Shown: positions 33,158 to 40,316 of the stretch, in pieces
Position numbering within the stretch: position 1 is the stretch's first letter
Layout: every line of letters begins with the position of its first letter
Assembly: GCA_902514885.1 (NCBI GenBank)
Contig: CABXST010000006.1
Location: 1-44,735, forward strand
Origin: an uncultured Alphaproteobacteria bacterium
Lineage (GTDB): Bacteria > Pseudomonadota > Alphaproteobacteria > HIMB59
DNA length: 44,735 nucleotides
Reading direction: 5' to 3'
Position numbers and translations under genes: made by a program
The notes under the pieces: generated by a model
The model's input: the letters and a program-made list of their open reading frames with translations, nothing else
Database searches by the model: none
Told to the model about the DNA's origin: nothing

Positions 33158-34237
33158 ATGGCTGAGGATTTTTATGACACTCTAGGTATATCCCGTGAAG
33201 CTAGTGACAATGATATAAAAAGTGCCTACCGTAAATTAGCAATGAAATATCATCCTGATCGTAATCAGGGTGACGCTTCCGCAGAACAGAAATTTAAAGA
33301 TGTAAGCCAAGCTTATGAAATTTTAAAAGACCCCAAAAAAAGACAAACATACGATCAATTTGGTCATGCTGCTTTTGAACAGGGTGGCGGTGGAGCTGGT
33401 GGGTTTGGACAGCAGGGCTTTGGTGGATTTTCAGATATTTTTGAAGATATATTTGGTGCCTTTGGTGAAGGCGGGCAACGCGAAAGTAGAGGCGATGACT
33501 TACGTTACGATATCACAATTGACTTAGAAGAAGCTTTTGCTGGAAAAGCATTGGACGTAACTATACCTAAAATGATCAATTGTCCCGAACAACACAGTTA
33601 TAAAAGCTGCTCTACTTGCCAAGGATATGGAAAAGTTAGAACACAAAGTGGCTTTTTTTCTATGGAGAGAACTTGTGGAAGATGTGGCGGAACAGGCCAA
33701 GAAATGAAGGGCCGATGCTCAAAATGCAGTAATACGGGTAGAGTAAAACAAAATAAGAAACTACAAATCAAAATTCCTGCAGGGGTTGAAACTGGTAACA
33801 GAATTAGAATGAGTGGAGAGGGAGAGGCCGGAGAAAGAGGGGGCACATACGGTGACCTTTATGTTTTTATCAATGTAAATAACCACAAACTTTTTCAAAG
33901 GGAGCGAGATAACATTATATGTGATGTTGCTATACCTTTCACTACTGCCACTTTGGGGGGTAATATTGAAGTTCCAACAATAGAAAAAAAAATGGTTAAC
34001 GTCTCAATTCCCAAGGGAATGCAGTCGGGACACAAACTAAGAATAAAAGGTAAGGGCATGAGTATATTAAGAGCAAAAAATAGAGGGGATATGATTGTCA
34101 GAGTACATGCTGAAACCCCAGTAAATTTATCAGCAGATCAAGAAAAAATTCTTAATAAATTTAATGACACACTTACCAAGAAAAATTCAACAATGACAGA
34201 GGGATTTTTCGACAAAGTAAAAAAAATGTTTAATTAA
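33158..34237 (+). CDS. dnaJ: Chaperone DnaJ with altered zinc-finger region
   Basis: DFYDTLGISREASDNDIKSAYRKLAMKYHPDRN; G/F region; CSTCQGYG, CGRCGGTG and CSKCSNTG repeats. Confidence 0.97.
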   Translation: MAEDFYDTLGISREASDNDIKSAYRKLAMKYHPDRNQGDASAEQKFKDVSQAYEILKDPKKRQTYDQFGHAAFEQGGGGAGGFGQQGFGGFSDIFEDIFGAFGEGGQRESRGDDLRYDITIDLEEAFAGKALDVTIPKMINCPEQHSYKSCSTCQGYGKVRTQSGFFSMERTCGRCGGTGQEMKGRCSKCSNTGRVKQNKKLQIKIPAGVETGNRIRMSGEGEAGERGGTYGDLYVFINVNNHKLFQRERDNIICDVAIPFTTATLGGNIEVPTIEKKMVNVSIPKGMQSGHKLRIKGKGMSILRAKNRGDMIVRVHAETPVNLSADQEKILNKFNDTLTKKNSTMTEGFFDKVKKMFN

Positions 34238-34752
34238 TGAGTTATTGTTTTGATTTTATCGAAACACCAATCAGTAAGTTTTTTGTTCTAGATAGCCCAA
34301 AAGGTATTCATTATTTAATTAAATATAACGATATAAGAATAAAGAGTATTATAAAACTTTACAATCCAAGTAAAGGATTGATCTTTAGAAAAGTTAATAT
34401 TTTTATATCCGAGTTTTTTAAAGGAAATATTCAAAAACCATTACATCTTAAAATAAAATTTATTAATGGAACGCCATTACAAAAAAAAGTATGGAAGGAG
34501 ATTTTAAAAATTCCCTATGGTAAAACAATTTCTTATTCTGATCTTGCCATAAAGATAGAAAAGCCAAAAGCTGTGAGAGCTATTGCATCTGCGGTTGGGA
34601 AGAACCCTGTGGGTTTATTAGTCCCATGTCATAGAGTAATAACGAAAAGTGGAAATTTTGGCGAGTATATGTGGGGGAAAAAAATTAAGAGGCAGATACT
34701 AGATATAGAGTATAAAGGAATGGCTGACTCGACATATAGAGGAGGAAAGTGA
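34237..34752 (+). CDS. ogt: Methylated-DNA--protein-cysteine methyltransferase
   Basis: VWKEILKIPYGKTISYSDLA; AVRAIASAVGKNPVGLLVPCHRVI. Confidence 0.93.
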   Translation: MSYCFDFIETPISKFFVLDSPKGIHYLIKYNDIRIKSIIKLYNPSKGLIFRKVNIFISEFFKGNIQKPLHLKIKFINGTPLQKKVWKEILKIPYGKTISYSDLAIKIEKPKAVRAIASAVGKNPVGLLVPCHRVITKSGNFGEYMWGKKIKRQILDIEYKGMADSTYRGGK

Positions 34753-34842
34753 AATACCGAATCAGCCCCCGCATGAATGCTAACTGAACACTAGTTAATA
34801 TTTTGATATAGTCAAAGTTGTTCAAACACAAAAAATCTAGAA

Positions 34843-37414: not shown

Positions 37415-37957
37415 ATGAAATTATTTATTGGTATATTTACTTTTCTTTTTAACCTATCCGTTAGTTATGCAGATCAAAACAGCCCTAAACTTGATGATCT
37501 ATTTAGTCAGCTTTATGATGTTAAAAGCTACAAAGAACAAAGTCTTATAGTATCTCAAATTTGGGAAGAATGGCTGATAACTGAAAATTCTGAGGCGCAG
37601 ACAATCATGGATAACATGCCTTATTTTTTCAGTTCAAAAAACTACAAAGATGCTATCGCTTCTTTAGATTTCATAATTCAAGAGGAACCAGACTTTGCAG
37701 AGGCTTATAACAAAAGAGCCACATTTTTTTTTATGATGGGTGACTATGAAAGCTCTATGAGAGATATAGAGGCTACTTTGTATTTAGAACCCAGACATTT
37801 CGGAGCTCTTGATGGCTTAAGTAGAATTTTAATTTATTATAAAAACTACGAAGAGGCATTTAAGGTTTATGAAGAAATGAAAAGACTGATGCCAAACGAT
37901 ATAACCGTAGATATGAAAATTGATCGTTTAAATCAGATAATTTCGAACGAAACTTAA
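37415..37957 (+). CDS. Exported TPR-repeat protein
   Basis: Signal peptide; DFAEAYNKRATFFFMMGDYESSMRDIEATLYLEPRHFGALDGL. Confidence 0.85.
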   Translation: MKLFIGIFTFLFNLSVSYADQNSPKLDDLFSQLYDVKSYKEQSLIVSQIWEEWLITENSEAQTIMDNMPYFFSSKNYKDAIASLDFIIQEEPDFAEAYNKRATFFFMMGDYESSMRDIEATLYLEPRHFGALDGLSRILIYYKNYEEAFKVYEEMKRLMPNDITVDMKIDRLNQIISNET

Positions 37958-38007
37958 TTTTATTCAACAAATATTAAAAATGACTTTTGATTTTATAAAG
38001 AATTTTT

Positions 38008-38065
38008 GCCCCTTGCCACCTTCCTCCTCGACAATGTCTCAACCCAAGCGGCTAGGGGATGGGTA
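38008..38065. other. GC-rich, potentially structured element upstream of the sulfur amino acid operon (candidate ncRNA or leader; strand uncertain)
   Basis: About 60% GC in very AT-rich flanks; CCCCTTGCC (38009-38017) can pair with GGCTAGGGG (38050-38058) with one mismatch. Confidence 0.4.
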
Positions 38066-38182
38066 TGATATTTTAATTTTAGTTGATATGAAACAGATTT
38101 TTTATAATTTAAAAAAGCCTGTCAAATAAGAAAAATATTGTTATAGATGTTATTTAAAAATTAATTGGTTATAAATTGAGCT

Positions 38183-39322
38183 GTGAAAAAAAAATTTAAC
38201 ACAAAAGTAATTCATGCTGGACATGGTTCAGATAAAGAAACCGGAGCGGTCATGCCACCTATCCATCTTTCATCAACGTTTAAACAAATTGAACCTGGAA
38301 ACTTTGAATATGAATATGCGAGAACAAAAAATCCTTCCAGGGATGTTTTAGAAAAACTATTAGCACAAATCGAGTCTGGTCACAGAGCTTTTGCATTTGC
38401 ATCTGGAATGTCAGCAATAAATACAGTTTGCGATTTATTTGGTACTAACTTCCATATAATTTGCTCCGATGATGTTTATGGAGGTACACGTAGATTATTT
38501 GATAAAGTAAAATCTGATATTGAAGTAACTTATATTGATTTCGATAAAAACGTAAACTGGAATGATGAAATAAAGGAAAATACTAAATTCATTTGGGTTG
38601 AAACACCCTCAAATCCTTTGATGAAAATTATTGATATTAAAAACACTGTTAGTATTGCAAGTGAATTTAATTTACCAGTTATTTGTGACAATACATTTGC
38701 CTCTCCTTTCAATCAAAGACCACTTGAATTAGGAGCAGATATGGTTGTGAGTTCCTCCACAAAATATTTAGGTGGCCATTCTGATATCGTTGGAGGGTCC
38801 ATTGTCATTAAAGAAAATAAAGAATATGCCGAGAAAATTTCATATATTCAAAATGCAGTTGGCGCCATTCCTTCGCCCTTCGATTGTTATTTACTAACAA
38901 GAAGTATCAAAACACTATCTGTGAGAATGAAACAGCATAACGAGAACGCTATTGCCGTATCTAATTTTTTAACAAACCACTCTAAAATTAATAAAGTTTT
39001 TTTTCCAGGTATTGATGAAAGATATAAAGAAGTTGCAGCAAAACAAATGGATGGTTTTGGTGGAATGATGTCTTTTATTCTCGATACAAATATTGATGGA
39101 GTAAAAAGTTTTCTTAAAAATCTAAATATATTTACCCTAGCAGAGAGTTTAGGAGGAGTTGAAAGTTTAATAGAACATCCTGCTATCATGACTCACGCCT
39201 CAATCGATCCTGCAATAAGAGAAAAATTGGGTATTTCCGATACATTGTTAAGAATATCGGTTGGTATCGAGGATGTTGAGGATTTGATTGCAGATTTAGA
39301 CCAAGCTCTGTCTAAAATTTAA
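38183..39322 (+). CDS. Cystathionine gamma-synthase/lyase-family PLP enzyme
   Basis: NTKVIHAGHGSDKETGAVMPPIHLSSTF; YEYARTKNPSRDVLE; SSSTKYLGGHSDIVGG; GTG start. Confidence 0.93.
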   Translation: MKKKFNTKVIHAGHGSDKETGAVMPPIHLSSTFKQIEPGNFEYEYARTKNPSRDVLEKLLAQIESGHRAFAFASGMSAINTVCDLFGTNFHIICSDDVYGGTRRLFDKVKSDIEVTYIDFDKNVNWNDEIKENTKFIWVETPSNPLMKIIDIKNTVSIASEFNLPVICDNTFASPFNQRPLELGADMVVSSSTKYLGGHSDIVGGSIVIKENKEYAEKISYIQNAVGAIPSPFDCYLLTRSIKTLSVRMKQHNENAIAVSNFLTNHSKINKVFFPGIDERYKEVAAKQMDGFGGMMSFILDTNIDGVKSFLKNLNIFTLAESLGGVESLIEHPAIMTHASIDPAIREKLGISDTLLRISVGIEDVEDLIADLDQALSKI

Positions 39323-39323
39323 A

Positions 39324-40316
39324 ATGAAAGATATAGTTGATTTTATTGGCAATACGCCACTGATTAAACTCAAATATCCATCTGAAATTACAGGGTGTAA
39401 TATTTATGGAAAAGCAGAATTTATGAATCCAGCCGGTTCTATTAAGGACAGAACAGCACTGGGAATAATCCTTGATGCCGAGCAGAAGAACTTAATAGAG
39501 CCCGGAGGCACTGTTGTAGAGGGCACCTTTGGAAATACAGGTATTGCCTTAACAATGATTAATAATGCTAGGGGATACAAAACTATAATTGTTATGCCTG
39601 ATGGAGCCTCTGAGGAAAAGCAAAGTATTTTAAGGAACATGGGAGCAGAACTCAAAGTCGTAGCTACTAAACCTTACTCAGATCCAGGTAACTACCAACA
39701 TGTATCTAAGAGACTAGTTGAGGAATTACAATCAAAAGGAGAAACCTCTGTTATGTGGGCTAACCAATTTGATAATACGGCAAATTATAAATTTCATTCG
39801 AAAACTACAGCTAAAGAAATATTCAATCAGCTTGATGGAAAAGTAGATGGCTTTACTTGCGCTATAGGATCTGGAGGAACTCTAGCAGGTACATCTATTG
39901 GACTCAAAGAACTAAATTCAAACATTAAAATAGCCTGCACAGATCCACAAGGCGCTCAAATGTATAACTACTTTAAATTTTCAAAACTAGAAGTTAAAGG
40001 AGAGCCATCAGAAGCGGAGGGAATAGGTCAGTATAGAGTAACCAAAAACGTAGAACCCTCCCTTGTTGATTTTTCATATCATATCACGGACTACAAAGCA
40101 TTCGAACTCTTATACAAAATGGTCAAAACAGAGGGTTTGTTTCTCGGCTCTAGTTCTGGTGTAAATGTAGCTGGGGCAATTGAAATGGCAAAAGAAATAG
40201 GGCCGGGAAAGAACATTGTTACAATTTTGTGTGACGATGCAAATAAATATTTCAGCAAACTGTATAACAAAAATTACTTATTATCCAAGAAACTTCCAGT
40301 GCCTGATTGGTTGTAA
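39324..40316 (+). CDS. Cysteine synthase / cystathionine beta-synthase-like PLP enzyme
   Basis: IGNTPLIKL; MNPAGSIKDRTA; EGTFGNTGIAL; GSGGTLAGTS; EGIGQ. Confidence 0.92.
   Translation: MKDIVDFIGNTPLIKLKYPSEITGCNIYGKAEFMNPAGSIKDRTALGIILDAEQKNLIEPGGTVVEGTFGNTGIALTMINNARGYKTIIVMPDGASEEKQSILRNMGAELKVVATKPYSDPGNYQHVSKRLVEELQSKGETSVMWANQFDNTANYKFHSKTTAKEIFNQLDGKVDGFTCAIGSGGTLAGTSIGLKELNSNIKIACTDPQGAQMYNYFKFSKLEVKGEPSEAEGIGQYRVTKNVEPSLVDFSYHITDYKAFELLYKMVKTEGLFLGSSSGVNVAGAIEMAKEIGPGKNIVTILCDDANKYFSKLYNKNYLLSKKLPVPDWL

Follow-up and report, generated by a model that had tools for sequence, protein, structure and literature searches.

The GC-rich island at positions 38008–38065 of the 44,735-nt stretch of DNA analyzed here (the window) is best explained as a small RNA gene on the minus strand that has its own promoter and would act in trans, perhaps via a second RNA encoded 3.3 kb away on the same strand. 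We consider this explanation, taken as a whole, moderately probable. Sequence comparison establishes for the island RNA (e1) its structure, its strand, strict conservation, a single copy per genome, and independence of any single gene neighbor, and shows that e1 shares its locus with another conserved and structured RNA candidate, e2, the loops of the two being complementary. The coordinates of all features are compiled in Table 1.

Table 1. Features of the e1–e2 locus in window coordinates
Feature	Position	Strand	Basis or remark
e2, conserved structured RNA candidate	34717–34785	minus	covariance-model search, folds, pair counts
e2 loop CACUUUCCUCCUC	34739–34751	minus	13 nt complementary (one G–U) to e1 38017–38029
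probable e2 promoter: TTGACT 34815–34810, 16 nt, TAGTGT 34793–34788	34788–34815	minus	read by eye
TPR-repeat protein gene, convergent with e1	37415–37957	plus	ORF list, annotation
e1, conserved structured RNA	38007–38060	minus	covariance-model match 79–80.6 bits, conservation, strand pair counts
e1 outer helix, 3′ strand AGGUGGCAAGGGG	38009–38021	minus	structure counted on alignment, folds
e1 internal loop, invariant purine-rich side GAGGAGGA	38022–38029	minus	alignments
e1 tip hairpin GAC-AUU-GUC	38030–38038	minus	folds; G–C to A–U on both sides in G008
e1 outer helix, 5′ strand CCCCUAGCCGCUU	38046–38058	minus	structure counted on alignment, folds
probable e1 promoter: −35 TTCATA 38092–38087, 16 nt, −10 TATCAT 38070–38065	38065–38092	minus	consensus match only
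cgs, Cys/Met metabolism PLP enzyme (cystathionine gamma-synthase/lyase type), divergent from e1	38183–39322	plus	ORF list, annotation
cysK, cysteine synthase	39324–40316	plus	ORF list, annotation

HIMB59-type bacteria live ocean-wide and have genomes of ∼1.4–1.5 Mb with almost no spacer DNA. An invariant noncoding element of 54 nt is therefore unusual in these genomes and must be under strong selection. The HIMB59 family averages 1.47 Mb and 30.7% GC (PMC10734472); the window has 30.0% GC and belongs to an assembly of 836 kb that is 58% complete (G000; the genomes compared are labeled G000, G001, and so on). Our sample of the genus comprised 52 genomes, of which G001 is 99% complete and consists of a single contig of 1.41 Mb; several of the compared genomes are incomplete. 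The island holds 35 G/C in 58 nt, a content reached by 7 of the 44,678 58-mers of the window, which are confined to two places, the other lying near 33361 inside an ORF (33158–34237). The island that the sequence-only reading had pointed out is thus real, and so is the stem described there, CCCCT/AGGGG with one U·U mismatch followed by GCC/GGC. Its estimate of ∼120 nt to cgs agrees with the measured gap of 118 nt to the GTG start at 38183.

Among 35 close genomes, the pairwise diversity of e1 is 0.0022 (2 variable sites in 52), compared with 0.256 at the fourfold sites of cgs, a degree of conservation well outside what chance would produce. The left intergenic flank reaches 0.234, and conservation is sharply lost past GGGGC at this edge. 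To the right it persists at a lower level, where the minus-strand promoter would be: the 122 nt separating e1 from cgs (38061–38182) have a diversity of 0.035 and probably contain overlapping divergent promoters. In relatives with a Cgs protein 89–99% identical, e1 is invariant and the left flank divergent. Across the genus, we distinguished five versions of e1: A (window type), B (G001, G006, and G024), C (G014 and G011), D (G005), and E (G008). A coding sequence was discarded as an explanation, because a 1-nt deletion in type B and a 2-nt insertion in type C break any common reading frame, as was a mobile or repeated element, given the single copy per genome.

In the predicted fold, an outer helix of 13 bp, interrupted once or twice, is followed by an asymmetric purine-rich internal loop that carries GAGGAGGA on its 3′ side and by a 3-bp tip. 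This minus-strand hairpin is common to all five versions (−20.7 to −23.8 kcal/mol). Folded alone, the minus strand of e1 yields −22.3 kcal/mol (z −2.5 versus shuffles) and the plus strand −15.1 kcal/mol (a modest z of −1.5); with its flanks, the plus strand folds no better than shuffles (z +0.4). When pair cells were counted over nine distinct sequences, 136 of 143 were standard on the minus strand, including 24 G–U pairs, versus 112 of 143 on the plus strand, where G–U pairs numbered 0. Because of this asymmetry, we assigned e1 to the minus strand, which bears out an opposite-strand RNA, one of several hypotheses raised from the sequence alone. The loop motif CCTCCTC, read there as anti-Shine-Dalgarno (anti-SD)-like, is complementary to what the RNA itself carries, GAGGAGGA.

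Further comparisons point the same way. The changes that separate versions B and C from A stay paired on the minus strand only, and G008 shows two-sided changes from C–G to U–A and from G–C to A–U. The paired cells, the two-sided changes, and the covariation score were each reached by only 2 of 500 shuffles, a result that is supporting rather than proof, since the shuffles take no account of relatedness and the fitting of the alignment to the model favors structure (the G008 copy was aligned with the model's help). In the window, the covariance model scores 80.6 bits on the minus strand of e1 versus 15.5 on the plus strand, and a model built without G008 (R1) recovers the divergent G008 copy at 26.6 bits. 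That the island is a structured functional RNA, as first proposed, is very probable from its diversity relative to fourfold sites and from the fold kept in five versions; that it is a structured RNA of the minus strand is, in our assessment, very likely.

Upstream of the hairpin, the versions examined by script have a TAnnnT box 6 nt (5 nt in type C) before the CCC run that opens the helix; in the type B sequences, this box was read by eye. A search for a terminator-like site adjoining e1 found none.

We found e1 in 42 of the 52 genomes of the genus, always as one copy (41 by DNA search, with G008 added by the covariance model). The search for its spread covered the genomes of the order, 385 genomes sampled from the class, and, with two exact patterns, viral contigs. 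It returned no e1 from other genera of the order, none that could be confirmed among the 385 genomes, and no match in the viral contigs, upon which a phage origin was dropped. The single outside match (G454) lies antisense to the gene of a Pal-like lipoprotein, and the weak matches within the genus represent one orthologous site with continuous, coding-like conservation; both were rejected. Eight genomes without e1 (G007, G010, G017, G021, G029, G042, G047, and G049) are also missing the neighboring EamA gene, so that e1 is probably absent there because the locus is unassembled, a reading for which the EamA search had no positive control and against which G042 does have e2.

The locus is arranged as EamA (+), DUF4864 (−), TPR (+), e1 (−), cgs (+), and cysK (+), with an lldD-like FMN_dh gene (−) between TPR and e1 and a TauE gene (+) between e1 and cgs in some genomes. 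The sequence-only reading had taken the island for the leader of the sulfur amino acid operon. A plus-strand leader or attenuator of cgs–cysK, possibly with CUUCCUCCUC as an anti-SD loop, would account for the constant site upstream of cgs or tauE–cgs in 41 genomes and for the conservation of the stretch between e1 and cgs (diversity 0.035). However, A·C breaks the plus-strand helix wherever the minus strand has G–U, and the plus-strand folds are weaker. The plus-side neighbor also varies: a TauE/SafE-family permease gene intervenes in G001, G005, G006, and G024, but not in the window type and type C, and in G008 e1 and cgs are on different contigs, with e1 preceding the lldD-like gene instead. 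The cgs genes of G002, G008, and G009 have no e1 in front. By inspection only, cgs has a TATAAT-like box on the downstream side of the island, so that the cgs mRNA would not include the island. We regard such a leader as highly improbable. Much the same holds for an operator or other protein-binding inverted repeat acting at the DNA level, which the extreme conservation, the inverted repeat, and the position between divergent promoters would suit, yet the changes preserve RNA pairing via G–U rather than DNA palindromy, 54 nt with a conserved loop and an abrupt end are long for an operator, and e1 occurs once per genome; this, too, has very little probability.

A leader that acts in cis on the lldD-like gene, whether as a riboswitch, an RNA thermometer, or a protein-binding site, left elsewhere as a relic or serving another transcript, deserves closer consideration. 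In G005, G006, G008, and G024, e1 lies directly upstream of this FMN-dependent dehydrogenase gene, 9 nt from the ATG in G005 and G006, close in G024, and ∼16 nt in G008; the 3′ strand of the hairpin contains a ribosome-binding-site-like AAGGGG ∼9 nt before the ATG, and in G008 e1 travels with lldD and not with cgs. A leader should precede its gene in most carriers, but these are 4 of 42, and the gene occurs in only six genomes of the order (the four mentioned plus G002 and G009, both of which have it without e1). The 38 remaining carriers have no lldD-like gene; they include the whole window-type clade, where e1 is almost unchanged, although a relic would decay. We therefore judge a leader of this kind unlikely. 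As a separate observation, the lldD-like gene behind e1 in G008 (contig C5, locus L160, 161–1229) is split over two frames by a frameshift or a sequencing error.

The Cgs tree, ((G002,(G008,G009)),(A,(G005,(C,B)))), in which some forks are weakly supported, places lldD-bearing lineages on both sides of the genus root, which implies at least three losses of lldD with e1 retained. From this distribution, lldD was probably ancestral and disappeared from A, C, and G001. Because e1 depends on no single neighbor, an independent RNA gene is favored, and these comparisons make it likely that e1 is a small RNA in its own right and not just a leader.

We searched six genomes for the complement of the e1 purine loop and obtained few sites, one of which recurs at one place per genome (34739–34747 in the window). 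It belongs to e2, a candidate RNA predicted to fold into two hairpins, a small one at the 5′ end (GCAUUCAUGC) and one of 11 bp, in which UUUCCUCCUC is part of the open loop. e2 is present in single copy in 42 of the 52 genomes of the genus, among them G002, G008, and G009. On the minus strand, each of its 126 pair cells is standard (21 G–U), versus 105 of 126 on the plus strand (0 G–U). By eye, TTGACT/A-N16-TAnnnT precedes e2 in all lineages inspected, a probable promoter that scores below the threshold of a generic promoter scan, and no terminator-like site was found near e2.

e2 is antisense to the 3′ end of an Ogt/MGMT gene and extends into the following gap. The Ogt/MGMT frame crosses e2 (34720–34752, plus strand) and in most genomes gives the protein GMADSTYRGGK as its C-terminal tail; a stop within e2 interrupts it in G009. 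A comparison of e2 with Rfam gave no match. Its plus strand resembles a cobalamin riboswitch, a candidate that was rejected on the lack of an Rfam match and on the strand evidence for minus. Weak matches of the e2 model outside the genus that were checked in detail fall in long open frames and were set aside.

In the window, GAGGAGGAAGGUG of e1 and CACUUUCCUCCUC of e2 can form 13 consecutive pairs (one G–U), 9 of which the search pattern had prescribed; the last five e1 bases of the stretch (AGGUG, to 38017) sit in the outer helix. Complementarity to e2 is kept in all five e1 versions (7 to 13 pairs). The duplex energies of the five pairs are not exceptional, being reached by 38, 268, 175, 85, and 115 of 500 dinucleotide shuffles, and co-folding predicts a duplex for the e1–e2 pair of the window only and not for the other four. 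No compensatory change was seen between the two loops, because both are nearly invariant; in G008, a change in e1 adds a mismatch, and G002 and G009 possess e2 without e1. A change of the e2 loop from CAC to CAA upon loss of e1 was also considered and abandoned, since G008 does not fit.

These unremarkable duplex statistics would also be expected if e1 acted in trans on its own, on other mRNAs, on a protein, or on 16S rRNA, and its complementarity to e2 were coincidental. GAGGAGG can pair with the anti-SD of 16S rRNA, and the GAGGAGG of e1 could do so. Against this, matches to the complementary pattern come back at a fixed place in the searched genomes only in e2 and in e1 itself, e2 is a conserved RNA candidate with the complementary bases in its loop, and CsrA, one candidate protein partner, was not found. 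Action of e1 alone consequently appears rather doubtful to us. Pairing with e2 may be the main function of e1, to which we give a little less than an even chance.

In the mechanism that we favor, e1 (∼55 nt) would be transcribed leftward from its own promoter near 38065–38092, fold into one long hairpin that presents the invariant GAGGAGGA, and act in trans. Its likeliest mode would be pairing of GAGGAGGAAGGUG with the open loop CACUUUCCUCCUC of e2. e2 may be an anti-SD small RNA that covers ribosome-binding sites, by analogy with the small RNAs (sRNAs) SisA–D, and e1 a decoy or sponge that titrates e2, as CrfA does for SisA–D (PMC12559287). Directly ahead of lldD, the hairpin could double as a 5′ leader, with the AAGGGG before the ATG held in the stem. 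We infer the transcription of e1 and e2, their pairing, and the decoy action. A trans-acting sRNA had been rightly listed among the initial hypotheses, the trans action as such being part of this inference. More tentatively, the two RNAs could form a dedicated module, an anti-SD e2 and a structured SD mimic e1, that sets the translation of many genes; we think this possible but doubtful.

If the loop pairing is real, the locus offers a testable sRNA–sponge circuit in a streamlined marine lineage. The corrected strand and target also imply that testing a cgs leader for binding of SAM or cysteine would have been misdirected.

e1, and probably also e2, represents an RNA family absent from Rfam. 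No Rfam family reached its gathering score in the window, permissive searches at the e1 site gave only unrelated families with E >0.1, and seven divergent loci yielded no match; ARAGORN predicted 0 tRNA or tmRNA genes in the window. A CsrA-binding sponge, suggested by GGA motifs, was rejected, because searches whose controls matched found no CsrA (PF02599) in 10 genomes of the genus, the 99% complete G001 among them. The sequence-only reading had been unable to match the island to SAM-II or SAM-V, and the Rfam covariance models agree, as neither is matched by e1. Both riboswitches are expected in the 5′ UTR on the strand of a sulfur or methionine gene, whereas e1 is opposite to cgs. SAM-V of Pelagibacter precedes metY, bhmt, and mmum; like e1, it and other candidate RNAs of Pelagibacter were spotted as GC-rich intergenic sequence in an AT-rich marine genome (PMC2704228). 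However, SAM-V forms a pseudoknot immediately ahead of the start codon, and e1 is a hairpin opposite to the strand of the sulfur genes.

Closer likenesses exist among anti-SD RNAs. The Rhizobiales sRNAs SmelA075 and SmelA099 carry anti-SD loops, CCUCCUCCC (PMC3927594), and resemble e2 in having a U/C-rich anti-SD motif in a hairpin loop; they contain three or four such hairpins per RNA, whereas e2 has one, with its complement carried by e1. In Caulobacter crescentus, of the same class, the alphaR8 sRNAs SisA–D have the core UUUCCUCCCU with an anti-SD signature, which the sponge CrfA masks with a G/A-rich stem loop (PMC12559287). The locus described here likewise combines a U/C-rich core (UUUCCUCCUC in e2) with a complementary G/A-rich element (GAGGAGGA in e1), and e1 provides a G/A-rich stem loop complementary to the core of a candidate sRNA of the same genome (UUUCCUCC), with unexceptional energies. 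Aligned without gaps, UUUCCUCCUC and UUUCCUCCCU are identical at 8 of 10 positions; the alphaR8 core is single-stranded, and that of e2 is displayed by a strong hairpin in its loop. A Rho-independent terminator, which alphaR8 sRNAs possess, was not found near e2. The likeness of e1 to CrfA is one of description, e1 being a single hairpin of ∼55 nt with its purines on one side of an internal loop and no terminator found. In contrast to CrfA and SisA, the interaction of e1 and e2 is putative, and their genes lie 3.3 kb apart. If it is true, the e1/e2 module would parallel CrfA/SisA independently, in the streamlined genome of an ocean bacterium, with a sponge recruited from, or doubling as, the leader of a hydroxy-acid dehydrogenase gene.
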